Source: Eubacterium sp. (GTDB lineage Bacteria; Bacillota; Clostridia; Oscillospirales; Acutalibacteraceae). Taken from it: 64,000 nt of DNA. The DNA lies in assembly GCA_017463985.1 (NCBI GenBank), contig JAFUEH010000008.1, forward strand, positions 1-64,000. The letters run 5' to 3'. A program made the translations under genes and the position numbers. A model generated the notes under the pieces. The model was not told where the DNA came from. It made no database searches and worked only from the letters and a program-made list of their open reading frames with translations. Shown piece by piece: positions 30,558 through 53,997 of the stretch (the stretch's first letter is position 1; every line of letters begins with the position of its first letter).

Positions 30558-30581
30558 AATAACCTCTCTTTTTATTTTTAA

Positions 30582-31268: not shown

Positions 31269-31281
31269 AAATGGTCCTCCT

Positions 31282-31743: not shown

Positions 31744-31788
31744 ACTATACCACAATGAATTCCGTTTGTCATTCACCGGAATGGTTAA
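31744..31788 (-). promoter_or_regulatory. Regulon promoter P1 (DUF3592-AIM24 operon)
   Basis: Operator TTAACC-ATTCC-GGTGAATGACA (31788-31767), where ATGACA (31772-31767) is the -35; 17-base spacer; TATAGT -10 (31749-31744). Confidence 0.85.
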
Positions 31789-31821
31789 AAAAAGAGAACC
31801 TCCGAAGAAGTTCTCTTTTTT
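31787..31821. terminator. Bidirectional terminator downstream of the 822-aa protein gene
   Basis: AAAAAGAGAAC pairs with GTTCTCTTTTT across nine bases; it touches the upstream edge of the P1 operator. Confidence 0.8.
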
Positions 31822-31834
31822 AGTATGATTTTAA

Positions 31835-34303
31835 TTATGCCGTTGCGTCAGCCTTGTTCTTTTTACGTTTAGGAAGGATAACGCCCGTTGTACCTACGAT
31901 ACCGAGTGCAAGACCGCCGATTGCGGCAAGAGCAAGGTAGCCGTAGTTGAAGGCGGACGCCGTAGCCGTAAATGCGCCTTCATCCGTCTGCCAGTAGAGG
32001 TACATGCCGCCCTTCTTGCTGTCGTTGCGGTAGCAGTATGCGGTGTCGTCCAAAAGGGTGGGCGCGGAGGAGCAGAACATGTGCAAAAATCCGTTGCTGT
32101 TCGCGGGCTTTTTGGTGTCGCCGTAAACTCTCGTCAGGGAATCCGCAAGGATCGGGTCGCCCTTGGCGGAAGATCTGTTCACGTAAAGCGCAAGCCATTC
32201 CTTGCCCACGTCGCCGTTGAGATCCGCCGCATCGCCGCAGCCCCACTTTTGATAATCGGAAACGCCGGACTGCGCGTTTTTATGAATACCGACCGTTTGC
32301 CGGTTGCACTTGACGACCTCGTAATAGGCGAACTGGTCGAAGGTGATGAGCTGCTGCTGTTTGCCGTTTTCATCGGTATAATAACTTACGATATCCGCCT
32401 CGTCCACGATCATGAGCGGAATCTGGGTGAAATCACGGTTATAGAACTTGACGAGCTGCGCCGCCTCCACCGCGGCCGCCGCGATCATCAGCACTGCGCC
32501 GACGCCCATCACGATTTTGCCGGCAGCGCTCATACTCTTCGCACCGGCAAGGTTCCTTTGCGCATCACCAAGGCATTTAGAATAGAACTGTGAGCCATTT
32601 ATAAAGTCGCATGTTTGCCACGTTTCAGTCCATCCATTTACTAATGTAACATTTTGCGTTGATTCGTGAATTACGCCTCCCGCTTCTTCTATCAATTTTA
32701 GCTCATTATTAAAGAGATTAACATCTGCAGTGAATTCAGCTACATCCTTCGCCGCTCTGTACGCCACGACCGCTCCGGTAACGAACGTTACCAAGCCGAC
32801 GCTGGCCGCCGAGTAGAAAATGATATTTGCGATGCCGCCTTCATCCCACCATTCGTCGTAGGGGTCTCTGCCGAGATTTTTCTGCATCCGCGCCTTGCTG
32901 GTGATTGCCACGCCGTTGCGGAAGATGGCGCGATTCATGCCACTGTAAATAGAGATGATGTCTTTTTCTTCATCCTTGAAGATCTCATCAAGCGAGGGAA
33001 ACTCTGCTTCCATCGCGTCGTCGCTGTTCATACCAAGCGTGAACAGCTTGGTCAGCGGCAGCAGCTCCAGCGCCGCCCGCTGCCCCTTGGAGAGCGCCAC
33101 CGCGATGGGCGCGAAGTATTCCAGCTCCTCGCTGTAATCGTCGTCCTCATCCTCGGGACGGAACAGATCGTAAAGCGTACTGCCCCAGTCGCCGGAATAA
33201 TCCACCGTTTTCAGAAGGAAATAATAATCCTCCACGCTGCAGTAGCGGTCGTATTCTGTATCATACCGGGCAGCGTCCGTTTCCTGCAGGTCTGTGAAAT
33301 ACGCCTCCACGACTTCGCCGTAATCGTCGACAGGCTCATTTTCGCTGTCCAGGAATCCGTTCTCTTGGCAATACTCTTCAAACCAGAGGATATCCTCATG
33401 GACATCCGTCCATCGCTCTGCAAGAATCTTTGCGGAGTCCTCGTAATGTTCCGCCAGCACGCCGAGCGCCGCGGAGGGCGCCAGATCCTGACCGGCGACA
33501 GCGGGCACAAGCTCCCCGATCCTGTCGGTCAGATCCGTGCCGGTGAAGGAGTCGAGCCGGTCAAGCCAGGAATCCTCATTCGCGTCGGTTGCCAGCGCCA
33601 ATATCTGCTCGATGGCGATCACCGCAAAGCCGGTGCTTTCCAGAATGATCTGCTGCAGGTCCGCCACGTTCATTTTCTCTTCCTTGGAGAGCTTGTTATA
33701 CGCCTCGTCGCCGATTTCGGTCTTCGTCTTGTTCAGGAACAGGTCGCCCAAAGGCTTGCCGGTGTCGTTGACAGCGTATTCGTCATCGTTACCGTCATAG
33801 AATTTATTCAGCAGATCGTGGGCGTACTGCGCGCGCTTCTGCCCGCCTTCGCTTCCCTCGCCGTTGTAATTGGCGCGGTATTCCTCCAGAGCGGGAACGA
33901 AGGTCATGATAAACTCGTTGATGTCGGCCTTTTTCTGTTTCACAAGGGCCTCGTAATCGTCGAAGCTGTAGCCGCCGCCCAATTGGTTCATGGTCGCCAT
34001 ATCGGTGATGGCGCCATTCGGGTCGTTCGTGCGTTTTATGCCGAGGTAAGCGACGGATGTGGTAAAGCCCGGGGCCTCGGAGGTTTTGTCCTCGTTGAGG
34101 TCCGCGACCGGCTCCCAGCCGTTGTCGATGAGCCACTGCCGCGCCTTATCGCGGTCCGTGCCGGTAGCGACGTACACGTCGCTGATGTATTTGCCGTTTC
34201 CCGTAGAGTCGGCCGCCGCCTGCACCACGCTCACCGGCGCGATAAAGGCTGTGAGCGCCGCCAACAGGCAGGCAAGGAGTTTGGTTAAAAGTTTTCTGTT
34301 CAT
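31835..34303 (-). CDS. Exported multi-domain membrane protein, YLGYK/ITDI family, unknown function
   Basis: 822 aa from ATG 34303 (AAAGGAT site). Signal peptide 1-29 (VVQAAA). Residues 34-110 are one copy of a repeat shared with the two large proteins upstream: YISDVYVATG ... VAYLGIKRTNDPNGAITDMATM. A long acidic helical region follows, then two internal membrane segments (FYSAASVGLVTFVTGAVVAY and IVMGVGAVLMIAAAA) and a C-terminal domain ending in a membrane segment and KRKKNK tail without a sorting motif. An AT-rich block (32581-32750) sits in an otherwise GC-rich gene. It has its own operator promoter directly after the 1817-aa gene. Confidence 0.8.
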   Translation of the reverse strand: MNRKLLTKLLACLLAALTAFIAPVSVVQAAADSTGNGKYISDVYVATGTDRDKARQWLIDNGWEPVADLNEDKTSEAPGFTTSVAYLGIKRTNDPNGAITDMATMNQLGGGYSFDDYEALVKQKKADINEFIMTFVPALEEYRANYNGEGSEGGQKRAQYAHDLLNKFYDGNDDEYAVNDTGKPLGDLFLNKTKTEIGDEAYNKLSKEEKMNVADLQQIILESTGFAVIAIEQILALATDANEDSWLDRLDSFTGTDLTDRIGELVPAVAGQDLAPSAALGVLAEHYEDSAKILAERWTDVHEDILWFEEYCQENGFLDSENEPVDDYGEVVEAYFTDLQETDAARYDTEYDRYCSVEDYYFLLKTVDYSGDWGSTLYDLFRPEDEDDDYSEELEYFAPIAVALSKGQRAALELLPLTKLFTLGMNSDDAMEAEFPSLDEIFKDEEKDIISIYSGMNRAIFRNGVAITSKARMQKNLGRDPYDEWWDEGGIANIIFYSAASVGLVTFVTGAVVAYRAAKDVAEFTADVNLFNNELKLIEEAGGVIHESTQNVTLVNGWTETWQTCDFINGSQFYSKCLGDAQRNLAGAKSMSAAGKIVMGVGAVLMIAAAAVEAAQLVKFYNRDFTQIPLMIVDEADIVSYYTDENGKQQQLITFDQFAYYEVVKCNRQTVGIHKNAQSGVSDYQKWGCGDAADLNGDVGKEWLALYVNRSSAKGDPILADSLTRVYGDTKKPANSNGFLHMFCSSAPTLLDDTAYCYRNDSKKGGMYLYWQTDEGAFTATASAFNYGYLALAAIGGLALGIVGTTGVILPKRKKNKADATA

Positions 34304-34334
34304 ACGAATGATCCTTTCTTCATCTGATATTTCT

Positions 34335-34379
34335 ATCATATCATTTCGTTTCCCGTTTGTCATTCACCGGAATGGTGAA
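34335..34379 (-). promoter_or_regulatory. Regulon promoter P2 (822-aa protein)
   Basis: Operator is a perfect dyad here: TTCACC-ATTCC-GGTGAA, continuing to ATGACA (34363-34358, -35); 17 bases; TATGAT -10 (34340-34335). The operator lies three bases beyond the stop of the 1817-aa gene, with no terminator between. Confidence 0.85.
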
Positions 34380-34381
34380 TT

Positions 34382-37300
34382 TTAACTCACCTGTTTGAGT
34401 TCGCCGAAGGTCGTCTTTGCGCTGTAGTAGCCGAATTCCGGCAGCCGGGCGTTTTCGCGAATTTGGAACGTGCCGTTGCCATTGGCGATCTGCCGGTCCA
34501 CGTACATATACACGCGGCGGTCGGCAGTGTGCCAGCCGGAATTGCCGATTCCGGGTAAAACGCCCTCGTTCAGCGAAAAACGCGTTGCCCCCTCGCCTGA
34601 GGGATTGTAATTCAACGGCGAGCCGGATACGCCCAGCACGCACTCCCAGATGGGGTTCTGATAGTAGGCGGACGAAAAATCTTTTTTGCCGTAGGCGTAA
34701 TAGGTGTTCTCATACACAGCCGCCAGATCCTCCGCCGTCGCCATCCGCGGGGAAATATCGCCGTAGGTAAAGCTCATATTCGTGATCGGCGCGATCAGGG
34801 CCTCCGCCTTCGGCGCGTAATAGAAGCTCTTTGTGGTGTAATACAGATACAATCCCTCACCGCCGTTCCCCTCGTTGAGCGAGACGACCTCCGAGCCGAC
34901 CTTGAGATTGTGCTTTAAGAGCTTATATTCAACGCCCGCGCCGTTCGCAGCCGCGTAATCGTTGAACGTGAGCGCCTTGTTCACTGTCTTTGCGGCGTAT
35001 GCGCCATTGACATTGATCTTCTCCGGCGGGTCGTCGCCCTGATAAAGGAAGATATCCGTAATGCCGTTCTTCGCCGTGGCCGTGCGCCGGTAGCCGATGG
35101 CAATCCATTTGTCCGAGAAGGAATTGTAATTACAGTTCACGTCCGTCGCGCCGAACGCGCCCGACGTGCTGATCATATCGATGTACGCGTCCCGCTTCGA
35201 GTCGCCCACGCCGATATAGATCCCCTCGTAATAGGGCAGATCCGCACGGTTGTAGCCCAGGTGGATGTACTTTTGCTCGTCCGGACGCTTGCGCAGCTGG
35301 CTGAAGGAGGGCAGCTCCAGATCGACGCGATCAGCGTCGGAAACCGTATAGGTGGAGTTATAGCCGTTGATGAAGATCTCGTCGTTCACCGCCAGCTTCG
35401 TGATGGGGGCTGTGTAGCCGCTCGCGCCGGTGTTGGGGGTATAGTAGAGGAAATAGGATCCTTCCGACGATTTCACCGGGCCGCCGGCAAGATAACACTT
35501 GGTAGAACCCGCGTTCAGCGTGGAGGAGGCAATTTCATCGTCGGAATACAGCTTCAGAAGACCATAGGCGGCGTTTTTCTTTACGCCGGTACGCACGACG
35601 CCGATATAGGCGCAGTTTCCGGTTTTCTCATAATCGTCCGCCGATTCGTCCTCTTGCGAGGTAGCGTGTCCGTCCCAGCGATAGTACGCCGCCTCGTTCC
35701 CTCGCACCCATTTGCCGTTATCCAGGGAGCTTACGTTGGTATTATTCAGGTGCAGATCGTACCACGGGTGGGTGTTGGACAGATCCACGGGCATGATCTC
35801 CGCCATCTCCGTGATCATGGGGTAGCTGGAAATATCGTCGCAGGCTTCGGCAATCGAGGGCCACTGCTTTGACATATTGGAATAAAGGTCCGCAATGGCT
35901 GATTCCGGCGTTTTGCCAACGCCGCAAAAGATCGCGGTCACGTATTCCTTTGCCGCGTATTCATTGTTGACCGGCAGAATCTTTGCCTTCTGCGTCACCT
36001 TGTTGTTGTCGTTCCTGACTTCCTCGCGGTCGATCCCTCTGCCGCCCGCGTCGGTTTTCAGATAGAGATACAGGTATTTTGAGCCCTTGTTGGTGGTCTC
36101 CAGCGCAAGGTTCATCGGGTGTTCGTAATCGCCGGGGGTACGCAAATCGCACAGCGGCACAAAGCCGCCGGGCGTTTCGGGATTTTCCTGCGCACAGAAC
36201 GTAATATCCTCGCGTCGGAGGGGGCTGACGCCGTCGCGCGGCCCGGCGGTCAGCAGATAACGGGTCAGGATCTCCGTTTCATAGGCGTTTCCGTCGCCGT
36301 CCTTTGCCATCCACGACAGATCCGATTGCTGCTTCGCCTCATAATTGGTATACAGCGGGAAGTGCATCGTGTTTACGTTATAATAGCTCGCGCTGATCCC
36401 CGCGTGCATGATCGGGCAGCCCTGTATGCTGACGCTGCACGGAAGGAATGCGCCGGCAGGGGTTGTAAGCCCGGTATATTTGAGCTGTGAGGTCGTTTCC
36501 GTATACGGCGCGACGAGTCCCGCGATCCCGGTAATAGCGCGATAGGGGTTGTAGGTGTAGGAAACGCCGAAATACATCGCCGTGTGATAGATCATGTGGT
36601 CGTTTTCATCCCGGCTCACGTTATCCCACAGCTCGTACATGACGCGGTTGGTTTCCATATACATCGACCAGCCGCCGTCGTTACATGCCATGATCTTCCC
36701 GTCGAAGACGGTGTGGAACTGCTCGTAGGTATAGGTGTTGAGCACGCCGCCGCCTCTGTCATACCATACGGTGCCGAGGGTCATTTCTCCGGCGGAATCG
36801 GACATGACGCGCAGGGGCTCGCCGTCCTCCTCCAGCAGCTCAAAGCCGTTGTTGGCGGCATAGGACTGCATGAATTCTTCGTTGGAGCCGTATTTGCTAA
36901 ACTCAGTTTTATTGTCGCCCGCAAGAAAGTAGGAGAAGCCGCCCACGTACTGCGGCTGCGGTTCGCCGTTTTCATTCTCAGCCTTATACTGCGTCTTCGG
37001 CGTGAAGTAGATATAAAGGCCGTTTTCCGGGTCCTCCTCGTCCAGATAATACCGCGCGTAGTCCTTGGAGCTGGACACGTAGTTGTAGCCGCCGATGGTG
37101 GCGGAAAAGTAGCCCTTGACGTCGTCCTCCCAGTCCTCGTCGTCGATCTTAAGGATATTGTCGCTCCATCTGTGACTGAAATCTACCGCGTTGCCGCCGC
37201 TGAAGAGGCAGACCGGCTCCATACCGCAGCCAAGCTCCAGACGGTGGTCGAGAATCTCAAGCCCTGTGATCGGCGAGCCCGCCGAGGGGCTGCTCGTGAT

Positions 37301-39835
37301 ATACAGGCTCATGCCGTCCGGCGTGGCGCCGCCCTTTTCCTCGCCTGCCTTGGCGTAGGAGGCGTCGCCAAACGTATAGGCGAAATTCGGATTTGTTACG
37401 GTGTTGCACACGCGGATGTCCCGGATGGCGCTGTTCTCGTCGGGCGTGAGCTGATAGCCGAGAATGGTGTAGCCGTCGTAGGGCGTCAGGTTCACGTCAA
37501 AATACTCATAGTGGTTATCTTTCAGGTAATTGACAGCGTCCTCTTTCTTTTCTGCCCAGGATAGATGCACGGAGGAAATGAAGGTCTTGTTGTCGCCCTC
37601 CACGCCAATACTGATCGACTCCCCCTTGCCGGGAATGAACACATACAGGGGCGAGCCTTTCGTGTCGTTTACCTCCACGTCGTTGACGTTGACAGCCGTG
37701 CTGTTGATAATCAGCGACAGCGGGCGATAGCCCTCCGGCGGCTGAGGATCGCTTCCTGTCACGAAAGGATCCTCGCCCGGGACCACTTCGATGGGATCGC
37801 CGCAGGCGGGCGCTTTGGAATAATACATTGTGATCCAGCGGTCGTAGTTGCTCTGATAGGCGTTCAGTTCCGCGTGGTCAGCGGAAAGGTGCTCCATATT
37901 GAGCAGCTGCCACGTCGCCCAGTTTTTGGATTTCAGCGTTTTGCTATAAGCCGTCAGGGCGTGGTTGAACACGTCTTCCGTTGCGTTGCTCGTAACCGCG
38001 TCATAGCGCACCCTGTACTTGCCGTCAGCGTTCGTGCGCACGTCGGAGACGATATCCGGAATGCCCTCATAGCTGATCTCCTCTCTGGATTCCAGCGCAC
38101 CGGTGAGCTCAAGAATGGTCCAGACCAGCATGACAAGCCCCACCACCATCGCGACGTAGCTTAGCACCTGCATGGCGCAGAACAGTGCGCCGAAGACCGC
38201 GAAGCCGACCGCGGAACCGAGAGCGCCCGCCGCCAGATTCATGCCAACGACGGCAAGGCAGTTTGTGCCCAACGTCCAGAGAGACTGGCTGGCAAACAAA
38301 GTAACGAGCATGATCGCGCCGCCGTAGCCGAGTGTCGCGATATCGATCACGGACAGGATCTGAACTTTATCGCTGCCCTCCTCGCGAGCTTTCGCGTTTC
38401 TGGATTCGCGCAGGTCCACACCGGAAAGCTCCGCCTCGCGCGACGCATCGGTCTGTACGATCGTCTTACCAAACAACCCGGTATCTGAATCCATCCACAG
38501 GTACGCCCTGCCGTCCTCACAACCAAGAGCTTTCAGCTTCTGCATCGCCTCTTTGACCGCCTTGTCGCGTTTTGTGGCGTAATCCTCCGCCTGGAACAGC
38601 CCATCCACAAGCCGCGCAAAGCCGCCAAGCGTCAAGGCCACGGTCTGCGCGCCTGTCAGCGCCGCGACGATCGGATATACTGTGGCGGGATGGTCCTCAA
38701 GCGTCTCGTCCTGCGCCAGTTCCATTATATATTCGGCGAGGGTCATATCCACCGTATAGGTCTCGGTCTGCCGCGCCGTATCTTCTGTTCCTGTCTCAAG
38801 CAGATCGGCGTTGGAAACGATCTGTTCTCCCTTCTTCTGATACGGCAGGGATTCCAGCAGCTGATACGTTTTCAGCGCCTCGCTATATTCCGGGAAACGG
38901 CAGTTATCGCCGGCTTCAGTGAGCTTTTCATAGGCGTTTTCGTCCGTCATTCCTTCCAGCTCCGGATACCCCAGCGTTTCGCCGTATTCGTCCAGGAGGC
39001 GTTTTGCCTCTGTGTAATTCTCGCTGAAAGCGCGGATCTCCCTGATAAACGCCTTTGCGGGGTCCTGATAACGCTCGTCATACTCATTGCGCTCGGCGGA
39101 GTTCGCGTCCTCGTACGCCTTTGTAAGCTCGCTCTCTCTGGCGCGGTCCACCCAGGTGGAACCGTCCTCATTATAGTCGGAAACGGCGCTGCAGAGCAGC
39201 TCGGTGATCCGGCTGAGCACCATCACGCTGCCCCGCTGGATAAATTTTTCAAAAAACGTGATATCCGCCTCATTCAGCAGGAAGTTTCCGAAAAGATTGT
39301 CCTCGGCGTTATGCGACTTCGTCTCGTCCACATAGAAGAGGTTCAGCGAATCGTACGCCAGCAGCGCGTTGGGGCTGCCCGCCTCCACCTTCTGGCGGAA
39401 ATCGCTCACCAGCGCCATGATCTGCCCGGCTTCGTTCTTGAATTCGGTCACGTGCTCGTCCAGAAATTCCTCATACGTCATTTTTTCAAAATGCGTATAT
39501 TTCATATCCAGCAGCGTCAGATCCGTGATCGCGTCGCCGGGATCCTCCGTGGTCTTATAGCCCATATAAATGCCCATCGGTTCCAACATTCCGCTGTAAG
39601 AGGACGCGCCCTCATTGAGGTTGGCGGAGGAGAAGATATAGCCCTCTGCCTCGCAGTAGCTGCGCGCCTGCTCCTCGGTTTCGCCGTAAAACATCTTCAC
39701 TTCGCTCATATAAGTTTTAGCGAGCTCAGTATCCTGTTTCGTTTCAGCAAGCGCAACCGTCCAAGGCTGCGCGCTGAACAGTAAGCAAACTACCATAAAT
39801 GCCGCAATCATTCGTGAAATTAATTTATTCTGCAT
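34382..39835 (-). CDS. Giant exported protein (1817 aa) with YLGYK/ITDI repeats
   Basis: Signal peptide 1-31 (WTVALAE). N-terminal repeat: YMSEVKMFYG ... GIYMGYKTTEDPGDAITDL; then a helical region to about 480 similar in layout to the 822-aa protein. Membrane hairpins lie near 500-590 (AIMLVTLFASQSLWTLG, VVGLVMLVWTILEL). The remaining 1200 residues hold further diverged repeats: FISSVHLSWA ... YTILGYQLTPDENSAIRDI, YVTAIFCGVGKTPESAIADL, IAIGYRRTATAKNGITDIFL. No enzyme motif or sorting signal is visible. The gene is GC-rich (a hand count of 38221-38280 gives 38/60) compared with the operon genes before it. It overlaps the upstream gene by 11 bases. Confidence 0.82.
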   Translation of the reverse strand: MQNKLISRMIAAFMVVCLLFSAQPWTVALAETKQDTELAKTYMSEVKMFYGETEEQARSYCEAEGYIFSSANLNEGASSYSGMLEPMGIYMGYKTTEDPGDAITDLTLLDMKYTHFEKMTYEEFLDEHVTEFKNEAGQIMALVSDFRQKVEAGSPNALLAYDSLNLFYVDETKSHNAEDNLFGNFLLNEADITFFEKFIQRGSVMVLSRITELLCSAVSDYNEDGSTWVDRARESELTKAYEDANSAERNEYDERYQDPAKAFIREIRAFSENYTEAKRLLDEYGETLGYPELEGMTDENAYEKLTEAGDNCRFPEYSEALKTYQLLESLPYQKKGEQIVSNADLLETGTEDTARQTETYTVDMTLAEYIMELAQDETLEDHPATVYPIVAALTGAQTVALTLGGFARLVDGLFQAEDYATKRDKAVKEAMQKLKALGCEDGRAYLWMDSDTGLFGKTIVQTDASREAELSGVDLRESRNAKAREEGSDKVQILSVIDIATLGYGGAIMLVTLFASQSLWTLGTNCLAVVGMNLAAGALGSAVGFAVFGALFCAMQVLSYVAMVVGLVMLVWTILELTGALESREEISYEGIPDIVSDVRTNADGKYRVRYDAVTSNATEDVFNHALTAYSKTLKSKNWATWQLLNMEHLSADHAELNAYQSNYDRWITMYYSKAPACGDPIEVVPGEDPFVTGSDPQPPEGYRPLSLIINSTAVNVNDVEVNDTKGSPLYVFIPGKGESISIGVEGDNKTFISSVHLSWAEKKEDAVNYLKDNHYEYFDVNLTPYDGYTILGYQLTPDENSAIRDIRVCNTVTNPNFAYTFGDASYAKAGEEKGGATPDGMSLYITSSPSAGSPITGLEILDHRLELGCGMEPVCLFSGGNAVDFSHRWSDNILKIDDEDWEDDVKGYFSATIGGYNYVSSSKDYARYYLDEEDPENGLYIYFTPKTQYKAENENGEPQPQYVGGFSYFLAGDNKTEFSKYGSNEEFMQSYAANNGFELLEEDGEPLRVMSDSAGEMTLGTVWYDRGGGVLNTYTYEQFHTVFDGKIMACNDGGWSMYMETNRVMYELWDNVSRDENDHMIYHTAMYFGVSYTYNPYRAITGIAGLVAPYTETTSQLKYTGLTTPAGAFLPCSVSIQGCPIMHAGISASYYNVNTMHFPLYTNYEAKQQSDLSWMAKDGDGNAYETEILTRYLLTAGPRDGVSPLRREDITFCAQENPETPGGFVPLCDLRTPGDYEHPMNLALETTNKGSKYLYLYLKTDAGGRGIDREEVRNDNNKVTQKAKILPVNNEYAAKEYVTAIFCGVGKTPESAIADLYSNMSKQWPSIAEACDDISSYPMITEMAEIMPVDLSNTHPWYDLHLNNTNVSSLDNGKWVRGNEAAYYRWDGHATSQEDESADDYEKTGNCAYIGVVRTGVKKNAAYGLLKLYSDDEIASSTLNAGSTKCYLAGGPVKSSEGSYFLYYTPNTGASGYTAPITKLAVNDEIFINGYNSTYTVSDADRVDLELPSFSQLRKRPDEQKYIHLGYNRADLPYYEGIYIGVGDSKRDAYIDMISTSGAFGATDVNCNYNSFSDKWIAIGYRRTATAKNGITDIFLYQGDDPPEKINVNGAYAAKTVNKALTFNDYAAANGAGVEYKLLKHNLKVGSEVVSLNEGNGGEGLYLYYTTKSFYYAPKAEALIAPITNMSFTYGDISPRMATAEDLAAVYENTYYAYGKKDFSSAYYQNPIWECVLGVSGSPLNYNPSGEGATRFSLNEGVLPGIGNSGWHTADRRVYMYVDRQIANGNGTFQIRENARLPEFGYYSAKTTFGELKQVS

Positions 39836-42800: not shown

Positions 42801-44720
42801 GCCGACGTGATAATCGCCATATACGGCGCCCTTTACTGCAAGGTTACTGATAACACTTCCGTTAACAACGCCGAAAAGACCGTTGTAGGTTTCCTTAGAT
42901 GTAACAGACAGACCGATAATGGCGTGACCGTGACCGTTAAAGCTTCCCTTAAAGGGATAGTCCGGCGAACTACCGATACGGCTCCATCCGTTACCCGCAA
43001 GGTTAATGTCGCGCATCAGGTGAATCGTCTTGAACTGCATACTGGTCCCGCGACTTACAAGGTAACTGAGCCCCGCAAGGTCGGAAGCGGAGTTGATATA
43101 TAAATCGTAGTCATACTTATGGTCTTCATACCACTCCGTGGTTACGCTGCCATCCCAAAGGTCAGCGTCGGTTACCTCACAGTCGTGAATTCTGGAGCCC
43201 CACTCGTCCATCGTTTCCACCGTAGAGGTATGCACAAAGCGGAAGCGTTCGTCATTTCCTCTATGATTACTGTAAAGCCAAAGCCATGTGCCGCTGCCGA
43301 GACTGCCGCCCTTTGCATTCCACACAAGCGCGTAATTGAGTTTACTGTGGAAAATATAGGCGCCGTCGTTTGTGTTTTCAAGGCTCCACAGTTGCTTGTC
43401 AGAGCCGTCATATTCTCCCATAGCAAGGTACTGCTGTTCGACTGCAGTGCCTTTATCCACCTGAATAACCTTATTATCATTTTTGCTCTTGAAATAGTAA
43501 TAGTCGCCACTTTTGCCGACGATCCAGGTCTGATTCTCGCCGCGGTGTTCCTTCCACAAGCAAAGCCATCCATCGCTTGTTTCATCAACGGCCGCCCAGC
43601 CTGCATGACAGGGTACAATCGCATATTCCTCGTCAAGACCGTAGCGGTCCAAATCCGTCGCCTCGCCGGATACATCCGCATTGAGAGTGAACTGAAATCT
43701 CTGAGCCGCACTGTGATTAGCGTTCCACAGTGTGACAGCGTTGCCGTTATTCGCGAGGTTACCATTGTTATCAATAACAAAATTCTGATTCAGCTTGCTG
43801 CAAATCTGATAAAAGCCCTTGCCCTCGTTATTGACTACCCATAGCTGCTTATCCGAGTGGTCAAAATCAGCAAGCTTCAGCGCAGCGCCATTCTTTGCCA
43901 CACCACCGTCAACCTCGAGCACATTGCCTGATTCGTAGTCCTCAAAATAGAAGTAGCCCTCTAACTCGCGGATAATAAAGGTATTGGTCTTTTTAGGCTT
44001 AATAGTCCAGATCTGTGTCGTGCCTTTTGAAGAAAGCTCAACAGCCGAGCTCGTAATCGTCTGAGGGCTAATGTAATAACTCTTTGAAACGTCGGCAGCT
44101 AATCTTGATAAACCAAAACTTTCAAATTTGAAAAAGAACTCATGCTCGGTAACGTTATTTTTCCAAAGCTGAACGTTTGTGCCCGCCGTTTCCTTATTGC
44201 CTGCTAAATTAAAGGAAAAGCGTGTATTGAGCTTCGGGCGAATGGCAAAACCGTCTTGCTTTTTTACAAGCTGAAAAAGCTGCTTATCCGAGCCATCATA
44301 ATTTCCAAGCTCCATACGTGTGCGTGCTTCTGCGTTGCCGCCGGCAAGCTGAAGCACCTTATGGGTAGCAGTATCTTCAAAGTAATAATAGTCGCCGCTG
44401 CCGTGCACAACCCACGATTGTGTGCCGGCAGAGTCCTCGAACCAGCTTTTAAGCTCAGTCAAACCGTCCGAGCCTGTGACTACCGCCATTTCCCGTGAAA
44501 TCTTGGGAACGATATAAAAACTGTTGCCCGAATCGGCAATTTCCTGCAATGATGATGCATAGACGTCACTGTCATCCATATACACAACTTCTGCATCAGG
44601 GTCGGTAAATTCATCAACGGAGTCGAAGTCGAAGCCCAACGCAAAAGCGTTAAACGGCACGGACACAATCATCACCAGCGCAATAAGAAACGCCGCTATT
44701 CTTTTTCTCATGCCGTTCAC
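39825..44720 (-). CDS. Giant surface protein (1631 aa): ricin-type lectin, GLUG repeats, beta-helix
   Basis: Signal peptide 1-28. Residues 45-500 hold three ricin-B-like beta-trefoil blocks (QSWVVHGSGDYYYFEDTAT, TNVQLWKNN, KQLWVVNNEGKGFYQI, AVTLWNANHSAAQRFQF), suggesting carbohydrate binding. Residues 560-910 are GLUG-type repeats (FNGHGHAIIGLS, YNGLFGVVNGS, VGGVVGW, GGICGFLDGGRIEFCANHG). After beta-sandwich regions, residues 1250-1560 form a right-handed beta-helix (GGAIYMRDNAKVTMKNCTI, GGGIYLEDDD, GGAFYCNTDD). A C-terminal membrane segment and KKRKGG tail anchor it, without LPXTG. Likely an adhesin or glycan scaffold; overlaps both neighbours. Confidence 0.85.
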   Translation of the reverse strand: MNGMRKRIAAFLIALVMIVSVPFNAFALGFDFDSVDEFTDPDAEVVYMDDSDVYASSLQEIADSGNSFYIVPKISREMAVVTGSDGLTELKSWFEDSAGTQSWVVHGSGDYYYFEDTATHKVLQLAGGNAEARTRMELGNYDGSDKQLFQLVKKQDGFAIRPKLNTRFSFNLAGNKETAGTNVQLWKNNVTEHEFFFKFESFGLSRLAADVSKSYYISPQTITSSAVELSSKGTTQIWTIKPKKTNTFIIRELEGYFYFEDYESGNVLEVDGGVAKNGAALKLADFDHSDKQLWVVNNEGKGFYQICSKLNQNFVIDNNGNLANNGNAVTLWNANHSAAQRFQFTLNADVSGEATDLDRYGLDEEYAIVPCHAGWAAVDETSDGWLCLWKEHRGENQTWIVGKSGDYYYFKSKNDNKVIQVDKGTAVEQQYLAMGEYDGSDKQLWSLENTNDGAYIFHSKLNYALVWNAKGGSLGSGTWLWLYSNHRGNDERFRFVHTSTVETMDEWGSRIHDCEVTDADLWDGSVTTEWYEDHKYDYDLYINSASDLAGLSYLVSRGTSMQFKTIHLMRDINLAGNGWSRIGSSPDYPFKGSFNGHGHAIIGLSVTSKETYNGLFGVVNGSVISNLAVKGAVYGDYHVGGVVGWLACGHLVNIYSEVRITNAADDNEGGIVGVCVRGGMIEHCTQNATVNNDDDDPNRGGIVGYSMGVVRYCVNNGMVNHNWDYGGGICGFLDGGRIEFCANHGTIGGGGKSERIGGICGQMANDGIIFACFNDGEVKSTGDDYIGGIIGITQGRRVVCCINLGSVSGDCQVGGISGQGRVYHCFNAGPVRGNKDVGAIEGKNEDASMGCVAMNATGPHVIGNGDAGSDQWDTAEEVINGHSCWALNYEDGDLSRAIPDSYGGNIKEVFTQNIGSDPYPTFGSSKVTKKGSSYVNEEYQVRAEYNREYGTVSGVGDYASGKVTLKATPAAGCVFEGFEVKSCKVGKIKGESGSEYDWPEEVVTTYTEDKLTLTDNINQSYTVKAKFGVYDEVPEDMRVTVKVELECTDDAGGWNSDNLPIELIDSAGELHLWVVNRNNLDDKGEKQSHTFYLGAATPVAVFATPDFGGGFTFRSYGLKAKMWVNGSGEAMESKEVIIRSWPFMSSKWGSDYMSITFENYGNSKVGNADKNEWEDYTRVKDAWNKARNGEDLTIRLESAWLLENVLELTHGQDVTLDLNGYPIIRTIKKTQDNGECIKVGSGSKLTIIDSNPNRASCGNFTGGCIMGGRSDNTAGLIECNGTLVMTGGTLYNGGTTDKGGAIKLNDNGSAELTNVLITNCWTSMAVFYQNEGGAIYMRDNAKVTMKNCTIRQCKALDYGGGIYLEDDDNKLNCENVNLISCTAIENFGGGVHQDRGETEWIGGTIKNCSADDDDGGAFYQDDGEVYFENVRFESNKSSDNGGAFYCNTDDKTWFIGCTFIKNTAGDNGGALYFDNNYLYMQDCSVTANSSGDEGGGLYIDSAGSIDVAGVTVIKNNDGTGSFDNLVLEDGAYIFDHGLEPDSEIHLRSESGGNVRLGNNLTSIYQLEEYFIADYGRLELTDTEDQDTQLRASVFSDGKAVFIIGTIMIILITAGTLFYFKKRKGGEKADAE

Positions 44721-46357
44721 CTCGCTTCCTCTGTTTTCTTAGATTTCTTTTTACGAATAATAACCGTTGCTACACCCGTTCCTACGATGGCAACACCGCC
44801 GAGAAGGAGAGCCACCCAGCTATGCTTGCCGAAGATGGAAGCAGGTAATTTACTTTTACGTTCTGTACGCTCGGTGTGTTCTACGATAGGTGTTTCCACT
44901 AAATTATCACGAAGCCCCATCAGCTGTGCCGCATTTTGAGGTAAGCCCTCACGCGCTGTCAGCATTGCAATTTTAACGAACTTTGCTTCCTGTTCTGCTT
45001 CGGTGGTCGCTTCCGTTACTTTTTCCGTGGTCGTTTCGGTTGTAGCTTCTTCCGTAGTTTCCTCGGTTACTTCTTCCGTGACTTCCTCGCTTTCCTGCTC
45101 TTCAGCCTCGGTAACTTCTTCGGCCATAGCTTCTGTTGTTGCTTCGGTCGTCGCCTCAGTAGTCGCTTCGGTAGTCGTCTCCGTCGTGGTTTCTTCCGCT
45201 GCCGACGGCGCATTATCAAACAGCTGCACGGGGAGTTTTGTCATAACGGTGTGATCGTCCCAAATCGCAGAATAAAGATCCTCATTCATTCTGTAGGTAT
45301 ACGCGGTGGTCGCGCCCTGCGAGAAGAAATATCCGTTCACCCATGTTCCGAAGAGGGAATTTTGCTCGTCCTCTATCTTTTCTGCATAAAGCATAGCTAC
45401 GGGATTTCCTGCTTTTGTATTCTTTGTTTGGTATAAATAGTAAGGCGTTTGTGCTTCAATCGGATTGCTTGAAACTCTTACATATTCCACGCCTGAAATG
45501 CTGATTGCTTCGCCGGTAAGGTTGGCGCTTGGTGTCGCCGACGCATCGGCAGTCTGCGCCTCTACCATAGCGTCAACGGCTTCGGCAGAAACAGCGGTAA
45601 GGCTCGTGATGGCACTTTCCTTATCCGCCGTGCGCTTATAGACAAGGATGGTATAGGTTTCGTCTGAATTGTCAATATCGCCCTCAACGTAATAATTGTA
45701 GCCGCGCTCGCAGGCGGTATAAACAGCGTTCCATTTATCCGTGTCGGTAACAACGCCAACCTCGCTGATATAAGGGCTAACGAGTCCGTCACGGATTTGC
45801 GCCAGATAGACCATAGCGCTGTCGCTCGCACTTTCTATATCGGCAGGCGTGCCGTTTGCCATACGCACGATTTCCGCGCCGTCATTCGTAATCGGATAAA
45901 TTTGATTTTCGTTGCTGCGCAAAACGTCAAGCCCAACGAGCGGAGCGCCTGCATTCTCGTCATTAGTGAAATACAGGTAGCCCGAACCGCCGCCGATGCC
46001 CTCATCAACATCAACCTTGCTTGAAAGAGTATATTCAATACCGTTATTATCTTTAACAGCGTTGCCGCCGTCCGTTGAAATCACAATATTGGTAATCGGC
46101 TTTCCCTCATTCATTTTGTAGCCCAAATATACCTGCTTATCTGAATTGGATGTCATATTCAACCCTGTCAGCATTACCGAATAGCCGTCTGCCTCCAGTT
46201 TATCAACGGCACCTGTGCCCGCTTCAAGCTTTATATCAGTGATAAAGCGTGTGTTGGCGGCAAGGGCAGTCGTTGCAAACGGCAGCAGCATAGTTGCCGC
46301 AAGCATCGCTGCCGTCAGCACTGAAAGGATTCGCCTCGTTATAGTTTTTATATTCAT
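44717..46357 (-). CDS. Surface protein (546 aa) with YLGYK/ITDI repeats and Thr/Glu-rich stalk
   Basis: Signal peptide 1-33 (FATTALAAN). Two repeat copies: RFITDIKLEAG ... KQVYLGYKMNEGKPITNI, and YISEVGVVTD ... YTILVYKRTADKESAITSL. Residues 395-465 are a low-complexity stalk of TTEAT/EEVTEE units. The C terminus has a membrane segment (VALLLGGVAIVGTGVATVII) and RKKKSKK, no sorting motif. Its stop overlaps the start of the 1631-aa gene. Confidence 0.82.
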   Translation of the reverse strand: MNIKTITRRILSVLTAAMLAATMLLPFATTALAANTRFITDIKLEAGTGAVDKLEADGYSVMLTGLNMTSNSDKQVYLGYKMNEGKPITNIVISTDGGNAVKDNNGIEYTLSSKVDVDEGIGGGSGYLYFTNDENAGAPLVGLDVLRSNENQIYPITNDGAEIVRMANGTPADIESASDSAMVYLAQIRDGLVSPYISEVGVVTDTDKWNAVYTACERGYNYYVEGDIDNSDETYTILVYKRTADKESAITSLTAVSAEAVDAMVEAQTADASATPSANLTGEAISISGVEYVRVSSNPIEAQTPYYLYQTKNTKAGNPVAMLYAEKIEDEQNSLFGTWVNGYFFSQGATTAYTYRMNEDLYSAIWDDHTVMTKLPVQLFDNAPSAAEETTTETTTEATTEATTEATTEAMAEEVTEAEEQESEEVTEEVTEETTEEATTETTTEKVTEATTEAEQEAKFVKIAMLTAREGLPQNAAQLMGLRDNLVETPIVEHTERTERKSKLPASIFGKHSWVALLLGGVAIVGTGVATVIIRKKKSKKTEEAR

Positions 46358-46363
46358 AAGTGT

Positions 46364-47008
46364 TTACCCCTCTGAGTGAGAATTTTTCGCTACCTTTCCT
46401 CTGTTCAGAATAACAATGGGAATGTAGGTGACAATCGGCATCAGAATGCCTATATACTGATATTGCGACTGTACCAGCAAATTGAAAATAGCATGATAAA
46501 TAATTGCCGCTGAAAGCAAAGCGAAGGTTCCGCTATAGAAAAGCTTGCGGCGTTTTTTGATATAGGAAATACCCATACCGACCGCAACGGTGCACATACC
46601 GTGTACCAAACCTGCGCCGAAGCCTCTTGCCAGCGCCCAGAAAATTGTTACGTTTTCAATATTCTGCGTGAGAATAACGATATTTTCCAGTACCGCGAAG
46701 CCTACGCCGACCGCATAAGCGTTTGTTACAAGCTCTCTGCGGTCATCCGAAATGACGATAGCATAGTAAAGTATCGGCAGGGCCTTAACAATTTCTTCCG
46801 TAAGCGGCGTAATCGTGGTCGTAACATAAAATGAATTGTTGTGAAAGGCTCTGAGCAAGATGCCGTTGAGTTCGGATACAAACAAACAGGCAAAAATACC
46901 CGCGAGCATAAAGCTCATAATCCGGCGTGCTTTCTTTTCAAGCAAAGGAAGCATTAAGCCGATGGATATGGTTAAACAGATAAATGCAATATAACTTAAA
47001 TTGTCCAT
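46364..47008 (-). CDS. PrsW-family intramembrane metalloprotease
   Basis: 214 aa with about eight membrane segments. TPLTEEIVKALPILYYA carries the EExxK motif typical of PrsW, FAVLENIVIL the conserved Glu-Asn, and GLVHGMCTVAVG and YHAIFNLL the histidines of the proposed zinc site. PrsW in Bacillus cuts the anti-sigma factor RsiW; here no sigma/anti-sigma pair is in the operon, so processing of the co-encoded surface proteins or of a kinase is the more local possibility. Starts inside the end of the 219-aa gene. Confidence 0.88.
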   Translation of the reverse strand: MDNLSYIAFICLTISIGLMLPLLEKKARRIMSFMLAGIFACLFVSELNGILLRAFHNNSFYVTTTITPLTEEIVKALPILYYAIVISDDRRELVTNAYAVGVGFAVLENIVILTQNIENVTIFWALARGFGAGLVHGMCTVAVGMGISYIKKRRKLFYSGTFALLSAAIIYHAIFNLLVQSQYQYIGILMPIVTYIPIVILNRGKVAKNSHSEG

Positions 47009-47655
47009 TTATTTACACCCCTTTCCAATACAGGCATCAGTGCAAGCATAACAGCGCACTGCAAAATATATACAATAATGATGCATACGGCGGGAAGATT
47101 GAAGGTTTTTACCGTCATCTCCACCATACAAAGAAATGCATAAATCAGCGCAACAATATTATATGGGCGGATAGCACGAATTAAGCCAAAATCCACATCC
47201 TTAATAATAATATGCTTTAAATGGAAATATGCCGCCTGTGCAATAAAGAGCGATACCACGGCGTAGGGAATCGTTGTTCCCGAAAAGCCGTTAGTAGCCG
47301 GAATAACGCACCAGATGGCAATTACAACAGCAGGCGCTGCCAAGGCGATAATTCTCGTTTTTTTGAACGCCTTTGAACCGTCGTCGACAAGGGAATCCAT
47401 TTGACCGAAATTGGCGCTGAACAGGAACATAAAACTTCCGATAATGCCAAGCAAGCCAACGTGAAAACCGCTTCTGATTTGCCCGTTCACAAGCAACTGC
47501 AACGCTTCAAAAACCCTTCCCAGCATTGCACATCCAACACTAAAAACAATCATTCGGATATACAGCGCATCATTCTTTTTTAGTAATCTGAACAAGCCGT
47601 AGTTAAATCCGACTTCAGCACACGCTGCCAATGCAAATGATAAAGCTACATACAT
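46996..47655 (-). CDS. Polytopic membrane protein (219 aa), unknown
   Basis: About seven membrane segments, e.g. YVALSFALAACAEVGFNY, LLGIIGSFMFLFSANFG, IIALAAPAVVIAIWCVI, IVALIYAFLCMVEMTV and CIIIVYILQCAVMLALM. No motif recognised. First gene of the 13-kb operon; AGGAGG ten bases before the ATG. Overlap with the PrsW gene suggests the two membrane proteins work together. Confidence 0.8.
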   Translation of the reverse strand: MYVALSFALAACAEVGFNYGLFRLLKKNDALYIRMIVFSVGCAMLGRVFEALQLLVNGQIRSGFHVGLLGIIGSFMFLFSANFGQMDSLVDDGSKAFKKTRIIALAAPAVVIAIWCVIPATNGFSGTTIPYAVVSLFIAQAAYFHLKHIIIKDVDFGLIRAIRPYNIVALIYAFLCMVEMTVKTFNLPAVCIIIVYILQCAVMLALMPVLERGVNKWTI

Positions 47656-47691
47656 ACGTAAAATTCCTCCTTATGCTTTTTTACAATTATC

Positions 47692-47736
47692 ATTATAAAT
47701 TGAAAAACGCGCCATGTCATTCACCGGAATGGTTAA
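47692..47736 (-). promoter_or_regulatory. Regulon promoter P3 (13-kb surface-protein operon)
   Basis: TTAACC-ATTCC-GGTGAATGACA (47736-47715), 17-base spacer after ATGACA, TATAAT -10 (47697-47692). Confidence 0.88.
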
Positions 47737-47816
47737 AATAATAGATAAAATCAAAAAATCGCCCTGCCGATTTCTCGGCAAAGCGAATTCTTTATCTTTT
47801 ATTGCGGTTTCTGCGG
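47715..47816. repeat. 102-bp direct repeat, copy 1
   Basis: Identical to 48325-48426; includes operator, -35 and a terminator. It marks a tandem duplication of the lipoprotein/VanY locus. Confidence 0.9.
47753..47786 (-). terminator. Terminator of the small lipoprotein gene
   Basis: On the minus strand TCGCTTTGCCGA-GAAA-TCGGCAGGGCGA then TTTTTTGATTTT. Confidence 0.85.
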
Positions 47817-47821
47817 GCAGG

Positions 47822-48193
47822 TTAGTCGGCTACCCTTGTGTAGGTCATAACAGTACCCGTGTCGGTATCCTTCATCGTGAGGGTACTGCCGTTGATAGTG
47901 TACTCCCAAGTCTGTGTGGAGGACGAACCTTCGTAGGTAATCTCGACAGTGGTGCCTTTATCGGCATAGGAGAAGTTCATTGTTGCTCCTCCGCCCATGT
48001 CCCATGCACCGCTGCCGTCATCGTTAAAGATGTAGGAAGAGCCTTCTGCTTCGTTAGCAGCCCATGTTCCAACCAGTGGTGAGGCGGTTTCGCCGACTTC
48101 CTTGCTTGTCTTATTGCCGCAGGCAGTAAAACATAGAACGATCATTATGACGCTGACGGCCAACGCAATTCCTTTAAATAATTTGCTTTTCAT
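47822..48193 (-). CDS. Small lipoprotein (truncated duplicate of the VanY lipoprotein)
   Basis: 123 aa. Signal peptide with lipobox CFTACGNK; residues 38-120 are a lipocalin-like DUF5640-type beta domain (LVGTWAANEAEGSSYIFNDD, TWEYTINGSTLTMKDTDTG). It is nearly identical to residues 1-120 of the carboxypeptidase encoded next to it but stops at TRVAD, the VanY domain having been deleted. Promoter, leader and terminator are also duplicated, so it is likely expressed. Confidence 0.88.
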   Translation of the reverse strand: MKSKLFKGIALAVSVIMIVLCFTACGNKTSKEVGETASPLVGTWAANEAEGSSYIFNDDGSGAWDMGGGATMNFSYADKGTTVEITYEGSSSTQTWEYTINGSTLTMKDTDTGTVMTYTRVAD

Positions 48194-48301
48194 TTGTTTT
48201 TCAACTCCTTTGTTTCTTGTTTGGCTTTGTTCATTTTCCTTTTGAGATGACGGCTATACAGAAAATTAAGCAGATTCCATAAAGACCGCCTTCTATCATC
48301 A

Positions 48302-48346
48302 ACTATAACACATTCTCAAAAGCTTGTCATTCACCGGAATGGTTAA
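48302..48346 (-). promoter_or_regulatory. Regulon promoter P4 (small lipoprotein)
   Basis: TTAACC-ATTCC-GGTGAATGACA (48346-48325), 17-base spacer, TATAGT -10 (48307-48302). Confidence 0.87.
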
Positions 48347-48426
48347 AATAATAGATAAAATCAAAAAATCGCCCTGCCGATTTCTCGGCAAAGCGAATTC
48401 TTTATCTTTTATTGCGGTTTCTGCGG
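48325..48426. repeat. 102-bp direct repeat, copy 2
   Basis: Exact second copy of 47715-47816. Confidence 0.9.
48363..48396 (-). terminator. Terminator of the VanY lipoprotein gene
   Basis: Same hairpin and T-run as at 47753-47786, in the second repeat copy. Confidence 0.85.
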
Positions 48427-48435
48427 AAGGATTGA

Positions 48436-49749
48436 TTAATAACCGAAATCAACAATTTCCCAGCCGCCGTCCGCGGTGCGAGCCAGCCACCACTGATAGT
48501 CTGCGTAGTCGAAATTCGGGTTAAGTCCGCTATCTTCAGTATTGTCAGAGGTGTGGAAATCCATCAAAAATTCTGCGACCTGCGTATACTTCGCATCAGG
48601 CTCCTTTTTATTCATCCGCGCAAGATTTTCGTCGTTTGCCGCCTCATCACCGGCATAGCGAATGCTTTGTAGCTCACAGCCGGGCCAAAATGCGAATTTG
48701 CATTTAATCTGGATGACAGCAGCCTTCAGTTCTTCTTCTGTGTAGATTTTTGAAGTGCCGTAATTAATATCGACCTTCGCGCCGCTCGCCGTACCGAGAT
48801 ATTCTTCAAAGGTGATGCCCTTATCCATAATCTCTTTTGCGGTGTCTGTGCTGTCAATATAGCGGATGTGCCATGGCTCATAACCGTAGCCTGTGATATG
48901 CTCACTACCGTCGAGATAGCGGAGAATAAAGCCGTAATCGGCAAGGCGCTCATGGATTTTTGCCCACACATCGGTGTACTTAATCATATCCTCATTAGCA
49001 GTCACATCCTCACCATCAATGATTAGATACAAATCAAGAGCAAGTCCCGTGTGATGCTCAGAATAGCCGGGGGTCGCAACGGTTTTCAGCGCATAATCCT
49101 TGCCGTACTTCTCGGTAAAGCGATCCATAATGTCCTGCTGCTCTGCAACGCTTCTGCGAGCGGAATCAAGATCAACAAAGATATCCTCTTTTTCAAGCGC
49201 TTCCTTGAGCTTCAGATATGCGTCATAGGCCTTCTTTTCCACCTCGACATCATCGCCGACAGAGTTGGTCATGTGTACAATCTCAAGTTTGTCTTCCCAA
49301 TCGTCGGGGAGCTTGTGTGTCTTATTGACAAGCGCCATATAGTCAATGCCGGTGGTCTTGGCTGCATCCGAAGCTGTGTCGGCGCCTACCTTTGTGTAGG
49401 TCATAACAGTACCCGTGTCGGTATCCTTCATCGTGAGGGAGCTGCCGTCGATGGTGTATTCCCATGTCTGCGCCGAAGATGTGCCTTCGTAGGTAATCTC
49501 GACAGTGGTGCCTTTATCGGCATAGGAGAAGTTCATTGTTGCTCCTTCGCCCATGTCCCATGCACCGCTGCCGTCATCGTTAAAGATGTAGGAAGAGCCT
49601 TCTGCTTCGTTAGCAGTCCATGTTCCAACCAGTGGTGAGGCGGTTTCGCCGACTTCATTGCTTGTCTTATTGCCGCAGGCAGTAAAACATAGAACGATCA
49701 TTATGACGCTGACTGCCAACGCAACTCCTTTAAACAATTTGCTTTTCAT
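48436..49749 (-). CDS. Lipoprotein D-alanyl-D-alanine carboxypeptidase (VanY/LD-peptidase family)
   Basis: 437 aa. Lipobox CFTACGNK; residues 38-122 the same beta domain as the small lipoprotein; residues 140-310 a peptidase M15B/VanY domain with the zinc motif SEHHTGLALDL and EPWHIRY (third His), and ARRSVAEQQDIMD upstream. It would trim the terminal D-Ala or a related link of peptidoglycan stems. The C-terminal 120 residues (AVIQIKCKFAFWPGCEL, DYADYQWWLARTADGGWEIVDFGY) are an unassigned domain resembling DUF4829-like NTF2 folds. Not evidence of vancomycin resistance: no vanHAX genes are present. Confidence 0.9.
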   Translation of the reverse strand: MKSKLFKGVALAVSVIMIVLCFTACGNKTSNEVGETASPLVGTWTANEAEGSSYIFNDDGSGAWDMGEGATMNFSYADKGTTVEITYEGTSSAQTWEYTIDGSSLTMKDTDTGTVMTYTKVGADTASDAAKTTGIDYMALVNKTHKLPDDWEDKLEIVHMTNSVGDDVEVEKKAYDAYLKLKEALEKEDIFVDLDSARRSVAEQQDIMDRFTEKYGKDYALKTVATPGYSEHHTGLALDLYLIIDGEDVTANEDMIKYTDVWAKIHERLADYGFILRYLDGSEHITGYGYEPWHIRYIDSTDTAKEIMDKGITFEEYLGTASGAKVDINYGTSKIYTEEELKAAVIQIKCKFAFWPGCELQSIRYAGDEAANDENLARMNKKEPDAKYTQVAEFLMDFHTSDNTEDSGLNPNFDYADYQWWLARTADGGWEIVDFGY

Positions 49750-49840
49750 TTGTTTTTCAACTCCTTTATTTCTTGTTTGGCTTTATTCATTTTCCTTTTG
49801 AGATGACGGCTATATACAGAAAATCAAGCAGATTCCATAA

Positions 49841-49867
49841 GCATAGGAGACACGAACCCGACAGCCC
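49841..49867. repeat. 27-base insert in the VanY leader, second copy of the GH3-upstream element core
   Basis: The leaders at 48.2 and 49.8 kb align closely except that this copy has about 30 extra bases, GCATAGGAGACACGAAC then CCGACAGCCC, matching 29384-29410 with two changes. Confidence 0.75.
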
Positions 49868-49887
49868 AAAACCGCCTTCTATCATCA

Positions 49888-49932
49888 ACTATAACAGATT
49901 CTCAAAAGCTTGTCATTCACCGAAACGGTTAA
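49888..49932 (-). promoter_or_regulatory. Regulon promoter P5 (VanY lipoprotein)
   Basis: TTAACC-GTTTC-GGTGAATGACA (49932-49911), 17-base spacer, TATAGT -10 (49893-49888). Only the five central bases differ from P1-P4. Confidence 0.87.
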
Positions 49933-49947
49933 AATTATATATAATAA

Positions 49948-49992
49948 TTAACCGGAGTGGTGAATGACAAAGAAAATATACAGTGTTATAAT
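49948..49992 (+). promoter_or_regulatory. Regulon promoter P6 (kinase/response regulator)
   Basis: TTAACC-GGAGT-GGTGAATGACA (49948-49969), 17-base spacer, TATAAT -10 (49987-49992). Divergent from P5 with 15 bases between the two operators, implying autoregulation. Confidence 0.88.
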
Positions 49993-53974: not shown

Positions 53975-53997
53975 ACTAAATCAAAGGAGGTATGGCA

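Follow-up and report, generated by a model that had tools for sequence, protein, structure and literature searches.

An operator shared by six promoters of a clostridial surface-gene cluster, and the REC-Xre regulator that probably reads it

A 64,000-nucleotide stretch of DNA from Eubacterium sp., an uncultured gut bacterium (Acutalibacteraceae; contig JAFUEH010000008.1 of assembly GCA_017463985.1; genome 2,581,250 bp, 97.26% complete), called the window here, contains a surface-gene cluster with six promoters that carry the same dyad. Which protein reads this dyad, and to what effect? The operator and its putative reader, a response regulator (P0002) that joins a receiver (REC) domain to an Xre-type DNA-binding domain, are well supported by comparison with relatives. 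Together with the adjacent sensor kinase (P0001), P0002 very probably controls its own surface-gene cluster through this one operator, likely as an activator; binding, phosphorylation and activation are what we infer from sequence.

Six promoters with one operator

The promoter motif was defined as TTMACC-N5-GGTGAATGACA-N17-TATRRT. Within the window, GGTGAATGACA-N17-TATRRT matches six times, and 100 shuffled sequences give no match. With up to three mismatches allowed, TTAACC-N5-GGTGAATGACA returns the same six window sites only (shuffle mean 0.15, largest 1). All six operators proposed by the sequence-only reading lie where it placed them, each with ATGACA as the −35 element and a 17-bp spacer to the −10 (Table 1).

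That reading had named random occurrence in the genome as a point that would count against it, and the motif is not scattered. With a spacer of 16–18 bp and a −10 of TATNNT, the whole genome holds six sites, all in the window, and the backwards control none. The bare dyad TTMACC-N5-GGTKAA occurs at eight places genome-wide, six of them in the window; the other two lack a −10 at 22 bp, whichever strand is read. The candidates for a further operator outside the window, these two stray exact dyads and two matches with two mismatches (one of them the same place), were rejected, none having a −10 at 22 bp. A scan of 398 genomes of the family matched 11, and the 10 other than the window's own (G000) carry one match each; the backwards control gave two single matches. 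Given ten single matches against two in the control, we regard single matches as background, which six within 18 kb are not. A close REC-Xre regulator is encoded in one of the 10 single-match genomes (G279); the other nine have none at E 1e-50.

The dyad runs one base into the −35 hexamer, an overlap of the kind that defines class II activator sites, which abut or overlap the −35. Each operator lies upstream of a gene, and in every case a plausibly spaced ribosome-binding site can be made out by eye. An 842-residue version of the P0010 reading frame overlaps P2 and a 164-residue frame overlaps P1; starts at 34303 (822 residues) and 31707, respectively, are more plausible. The earlier statement that the central five bases vary needs toning down for the window, where the centre is ATTCC at P1–P4, GTTTC at P5 and GGAGT at P6; there is more variation among the relatives described below (AACGC, AAAGC, GTTCC, ATTCT, GTTTT, AGTAT, GATTC, AACAC, GGAGC).

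Table 1. Operators and genes discussed in the text, with their positions in the window.
Feature	Coordinates	Strand	Description
Operator P1	31772..31788	-	TTAACC-ATTCC-GGTGAA; -35 ATGACA, 17 bp, -10 TATAGT 31744-31749; serves DUF3592-AIM24-CBM_X2 genes, from 31707 downwards
Operator P2	34363..34379	-	perfect dyad TTCACC-ATTCC-GGTGAA; -10 TATGAT 34335-34340; serves the 822-aa protein
Operator P3	47720..47736	-	-10 TATAAT 47692-47697; serves 13-kb operon P0005-PrsW-P0007-P0008-P0009
Operator P4	48330..48346	-	-10 TATAGT; serves 123-aa DUF5640 lipoprotein
Operator P5	49916..49932	-	-10 TATAGT; serves VanY-domain lipoprotein
Operator P6	49948..49964	+	-10 TATAAT 49987-49992; serves kinase-regulator pair (autoregulation)
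P0001	50041..51330	+	sensor kinase; His_kinase (PF06580) and HATPase_c; PHF and EN boxes intact; N-terminal half hydrophobic (by eye)
P0002	51327..51920	+	response regulator; REC and HTH_3/Xre; recognition helix QTVYRWE, residues 164-170
P0003	48436..49749	-	lipoprotein, DUF5640 and VanY carboxypeptidase domain
P0004	47822..48193	-	DUF5640 lipoprotein, paralogue of P0003 N-terminus
P0005	46996..47655	-	219-aa membrane protein
P0006	46364..47008	-	PrsW intramembrane protease
P0007	44717..46357	-	546-aa secreted protein, C-terminal membrane anchor (by eye)
P0008	39825..44720	-	1631-aa ricin-B-lectin surface protein
P0009	34382..39835	-	1817-aa secreted protein
P0010	31835..34303	-	822-aa anchored protein
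P1-served genes	29505..31707	-	DUF3592 31282-31707; AIM24 30582-31268; CBM_X2/SPKTG protein 29505-30557
P0016	52257..53501	-	pseudokinase, P0001 paralogue; E in place of the phospho-accepting H, no N-box or G-boxes left

The regulator, its relatives and the operator in other genomes

P0002 carries a receiver (Response_reg, PF00072, E 1.7e-17) in which residues D7, D8, D53, T81 and K101 are invariant across 21 aligned sequences, which makes it a response regulator, and an HTH_3 domain (PF01381; residues 141–195; 60.8 bits, cut-off 23), which places it in the Xre family. HTH_3 stands in the place of a LytTR output domain, of which Pfam gave no match at E 0.01; the best NCBIfam scores are those of BtsR and LytR, over the receiver and far under the curated cut-offs. 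Sequence searches with P0002 or its HTH part for a solved REC-HTH_3 structure returned none. The kinase had been called LytS-like: this is right for its His_kinase domain and does not extend to its sensor part, in which Pfam finds no 5TM-LYT (5TM-5TMR_LYT) or GAF domain at E 0.01. PHF and EN[AS] are kept in all 24 cognate kinases examined (L008 repeats L049; L064 and L065 were left out).

For relatives we used the best 80 of 125 loci found by a contig scan to encode a P0002 relative. In 24 of them (L047–L070) the protein is 48–90% identical to P0002 with REC and HTH_3 both present (L049 has a gap in the HTH); identity in the other 56 is 23–37%. The 24 close relatives are Clostridia by title, many from rumen or gut samples. 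A P0001-like kinase adjoins the regulator in 22 of the 24, convergently in L054; the contig of L058 ends inside the kinase, and the stretch covered for L056 holds none. The REC-Xre family is rare and patchy, with members at E 1e-50 in five of 398 family genomes and two of 391 class genomes (the window's genome is counted in both). Viral carriage was considered and rejected, no relative being found among viral contigs, and a plasmid collection gave no match at E 1e-15. Repeated entries (L127 = L050 and L128 = L052; by identical coordinates G048/G869, G279/G870 and G419/G872) were counted once, which leaves 27 distinct genomes from 30 handles.

The operator recurs at orthologous promoters, where its absence would by the sequence-only reading's own terms have refuted it: before the PrsW operon, the kinase and the 822-aa orthologues. 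The order P0005-PrsW-P0007-P0008 is found beside the pair in 5 of 24 loci (L047, L049, L050, L051, L054), several others being cut by contig ends, and P0009 follows P0008 where the contig reaches, likewise in L177 and L179. In four of these five (L047, L049, L050, L051) the operator lies upstream of the P0005 orthologue; in L054 it lies upstream of the P0007 orthologue instead. It also precedes the kinase, with one or two changes, in L047, L048, L049 and L055, and the P0010 orthologue in both genomes in which this gene was seen, G048 (L177, second of two tandem copies) and G871 (L179). Over the three sets of orthologous promoters, mean pairwise identity is 87–100% in the −10, which was no part of the motif search, 31–48% in the 17-bp spacer and 28–42% in the flanks. 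The operator with TGACA is 78–88% identical, a value that is partly by construction since the stretches were found and anchored via that motif. For the sites P1, P4 and P5 the stretches covered contain no orthologue. G048 holds a further target elsewhere, a 251-aa secreted protein that follows a perfect dyad (L178).

The dyad differs among relatives in step with the recognition helix of the Xre domain, so the REC-Xre protein is likely its reader, which supports the regulator named in the sequence-only reading. For 25 regulators, half-sites were assigned by hand, sites not at 22 bp included. Regulators with Q at residue 164 and Y at residue 167 (Q..Y) go with TT[AC]ACC (10 regulators), P..Y with ATTACC (4), P..H with ATTTCC (7) or TTTACC (1, L053), and P..Q with ATTTCC, R..Y with TTGACC and S..V with ATTGCC (1 each). 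Residue 164 as Q corresponds to A or C at base 3 of the half-site and any other residue to T or G in 25 of 25 cases; Y at residue 167 corresponds to A at base 4, and other residues to another base, in 24 of 25. Neither R168 nor the CC/GG step varies.

Genome scans over the 27 distinct genomes gave the same correspondence. Sites of TTMACC type were found in 8 of 10 Q..Y genomes and 0 of 17 others, of ATTACC type in 4 of 4 P..Y genomes and 1 of 23 others (a stray in G873), and of ATTTCC type in 4 of 9 P..H/Q genomes and 0 of 18 others (Fisher values 2e-5, 3e-4 and 7e-3, with relatedness ignored). Q..Y regulators are scattered in a receiver-only tree, and ATTTCC is found at two separate points, in both cases alongside P at 164 and without Y at 167. 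L052, L067 and L129 group with support of 98/96, and this group joins the window's group at only 83/81. The minimum number of changes on the tree is seven for the half-site, five for the helix and seven for the two combined, which allows each change in the helix to coincide with one in the half-site. G876 encodes two REC-Xre paralogues, R..Y (L056) and P..Y (L062), with a TTGACC site near the first gene and several ATTACC sites near the second.

In more distant loci the half-site changes, whereas the distance between dyad and −10 is mostly shared. We scanned 22 loci (396,062 bp), namely the window, 19 of L047–L070 (five judged near-duplicates were left out), L176 and L180. Dyads of the form nnnnCC-N5-GGnnnn with at most one mismatch lie 22 bp upstream of a −10 in 27 cases, compared with 1.19 on average, and never more than 5, at 36 other offsets. 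Such sites occur in 17 of the 22 loci. Without CC/GG, dyads give no peak at 22 bp (20 versus a mean of 21.9). A scan that dropped the CC/GG condition peaked at a centre of 5, with concentric echoes at centres of 3, 7 and 9. TGn precedes the −10 in 15 of the 27 sites. Their −35 elements match the consensus at 2 to 6 of 6 positions, and the 11 that match at just 2–4 suit an activator. At three places (L055 3752-3768, L061 16836-16852, L062 8095-8111) a single dyad serves two divergent promoters, lying centrally between them with 22 bp to either −10.

The genes behind family operators in relatives are diverse: PrsW and an S41 peptidase (L055), a cell-wall hydrolase (L066, and L060 at a distance of 21 bp), a SpoIIE phosphatase with STAS (L052), STAS followed by methyltransferase-STAS and nonribosomal peptide synthetase (NRPS)-like genes (L056), MBOAT with AlgX (L062), MatE-HATPase (L058, where the site departs from the TTMACC form at one base), a very large secreted protein (L059) and, about 500 bp downstream of the operator, an HD-domain protein (L061). 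The switch seems to be reused, often for secreted or surface products. In L142 (1613-1999, plus strand) a Nif11 leader-peptide gene lies about 110 bp downstream of the operator, and here the switch may govern a natural product of peptide type. A C39-peptidase transporter of the ATP-binding cassette (ABC) type and another weak Nif11 match were also seen in the region (L142; L062 13984-17426, minus strand).

Activation and the alternatives

We propose that P0001, in the membrane, phosphorylates P0002 on its receiver domain and that receiver pairing would bring two Xre domains onto the 17-bp dyad. The dyad would be centred near −43, with the operator running from about −51 to −35, and P0002 bound there would most likely act as a class II activator that recruits RNA polymerase. 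Lambda CI acts at PRM in this same class II register. In helix 3, R168 probably recognises the CC/GG step, with residue 167 contacting the base just outside it and residue 164 the outer bases, an assignment that follows the comparison with the 434 and lambda proteins. The local regulon would comprise the PrsW surface-protein operon, the second anchored protein, the two lipoproteins, the DUF3592-AIM24 genes and the pair itself.

Several observations weigh against this reading or narrow it. P3 and P4 are 87% alike over their upstream 100 bp, and P4 and P5 are 95% alike in the 22-bp spacer and also have the gene start in common; these are partial duplications, and the six sites are therefore not six independent origins. 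In L050, L051 and L054 no operator precedes the kinase. Spacing is not uniform: the nearest fitting −10 lies at 21 bp in L060, at 23 in L064 and L069, and at 10 or 15 in L068. With regard to the helix, the residue pairing was chosen post hoc, L053 breaks the rule for residue 167, and 4 of 29 regulators (L057, both in L067, and L130, whose HTH is cut short) have no operator found. ATTTCC at exactly 22 bp is missing in five of the nine P..H/Q genomes (L060, L064, L069, L068, L053), and the exact TTMACC pattern misses two of the ten Q..Y genomes (L058 and L131, which have one-mismatch forms). The link between helix and operator rests on about five evolutionary changes, and a phylogenetic test of it, with 1–3 independent pairs, reached no significance, the sign test being underpowered.

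The alternative that survives best keeps the same regulator and operator and makes P0002 a repressor, which at −43 would block the contact of sigma with the −35 until released by phosphorylation or by the pseudokinase. Xre proteins are often repressors, the dyad shares a base with the −35, and the window promoters have a good −35 (ATGACA, 5 of 6) and a −10 at 17 bp, features that speak for this alternative. The dyad, however, lies nearly all upstream of the −35 in a fixed register, and the 22-bp distance is kept although a repressor would work from other positions as well. Promoters of the same layout with the poorly matching −35 elements described above would hardly need repressing. We regard repression as unlikely.

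That the motif is the promoter of an unusual sigma factor, with GGTGAATGACA as a −35 of extracytoplasmic function (ECF)-like type and no regulator bound, is very improbable. The element is contiguous with the −35, as such a promoter would have it, but it has the form of a dyad whose 5-bp centre is free, both the −10 and the spacing of 17 bp belong to the sigma-A type, both half-sites differ symmetrically in relatives in step with the Xre helix, and Pfam finds no sigma factor among P0001–P0016. Least probable of all is that a mobile or duplicated element with no regulatory meaning gave rise to the repeats, as the stretches common to P3/P4 and P4/P5 might suggest, for P1, P2, P5 and P6 have nothing in common outside operator and promoter, the counterparts in relatives have diverged flanks and every one of the six sites precedes a gene.

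Known systems, the pseudokinase and neighbouring genes

The proposed activator system resembles several known ones in part. Like the LytSR/LytTR-type systems (BtsSR, LytSR, AgrCA), it has a kinase with PF06580 and a receiver that scores best with BtsR and LytR; unlike them, it has an HTH_3/Xre output and a kinase without 5TM-LYT or GAF. LytTR operators are direct repeats, in contrast to the dyad here. With Xre/CI-type activators such as lambda CI at PRM it has in common the HTH_3 domain, a 17-bp dyad and an operator centred near −42/−43, but the dimerisation domain of P0002 is a phosphorylatable receiver, so that the activator would answer a kinase. PrsW is the site-1 protease of the Bacillus SigW system; a PrsW-family protease is encoded in the main operon and again behind the operator in L055, whereas Pfam, searched with the cluster proteins P0001–P0016, finds no anti-sigma or sigma domain.

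P2TF (PMC3532121) groups HTH_3/HTH_XRE proteins as the Xre family and response regulators as a class, and the passages of that paper available to us describe no REC-Xre regulon or operator rule. A literature search found no REC-Xre regulon, with strict terms and with subscription papers and preprints largely uncovered. The parts are ordinary and of known kinds; their combination, a LytTR-type receiver on an Xre output with a fixed docking rule, private half-sites and a dead kinase, is new with respect to the literature searched.

On balance we favour, with modest confidence in the whole taken jointly, the view that the REC-Xre regulators of Clostridia are an unrecognised family. Its members would dock by one rule, on a 17-bp dyad that has CC/GG around a 5-bp centre and lies 22 bp upstream of the −10, and their specificity would follow a code of two residues in helix 3. 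Each would have an operator of its own and control a nearby set of genes for secreted or surface products (PrsW-lectin operons, S41 peptidase, cell-wall hydrolase, SpoIIE-STAS, MBOAT/AlgX, Nif11 peptides), and one branch would maintain a dead kinase paralogue as brake or sensor subunit. If so, an undescribed surface-protein set of gut Clostridia is tied to one signal, and the natural series of regulators, half-sites and helix residues would make Xre DNA recognition coupled to phosphorylation testable with a few short DNAs. The docking rule would offer a way to find such regulons in unannotated genomes, and a conserved pseudokinase beside the pair a chance to learn the role of dead histidine kinases.

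This pseudokinase paralogue, P0016, conserved beside the pair, is new here. It is 35–37% identical to the cognate kinases of L047–L050 and lacks two hallmarks of an active histidine kinase, the phospho-accepting H and the N-box N. Copies of its type adjoin the kinase-regulator pair in the window and in L047, L048, L049 and L050. In all five (two of them partial) the phospho-accepting H of PHF is replaced by E or D (SEF/SDF), and the EN N-box and glycine boxes are gone. The related copies are 63–66% identical to P0016, which suggests selection to retain them as non-kinases. The probable role of P0016 is to tune the kinase through mixed dimers, as a candidate partner or brake. A SpoIIE-type phosphatase gene follows the pseudokinase in L047 (10011-11672, minus strand) and L050 (12002-13910, minus strand), with a STAS gene beside it in L050; none was seen after the window pseudokinase. 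SpoIIE/STAS genes recur near the REC-Xre regulators of L052, L056 and L062. These recurring neighbours hint at a link with partner switching.

Pfam assigns no family at E 0.01 to P0005, P0007, P0009 or P0010. An AlphaFold model of P0005, of low confidence (mean predicted local distance difference test score 64) and used for the helix count only, has seven long helices; homology of P0005 to the kinase membrane domain was rejected (profile comparison probability 0.1%). The N-termini of P0009 and P0010 are related (E 5e-9), and a similar short signature is seen by eye in P0007. In L177 (5787-10888) the two tandem 822-aa homologues each lie in two overlapping frames at the same place, and the window copy and the covered part of L179 are continuous. 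Just past the pseudokinase, the window encodes a response regulator with a Spo0A C-terminal domain (53992-54753, plus strand).

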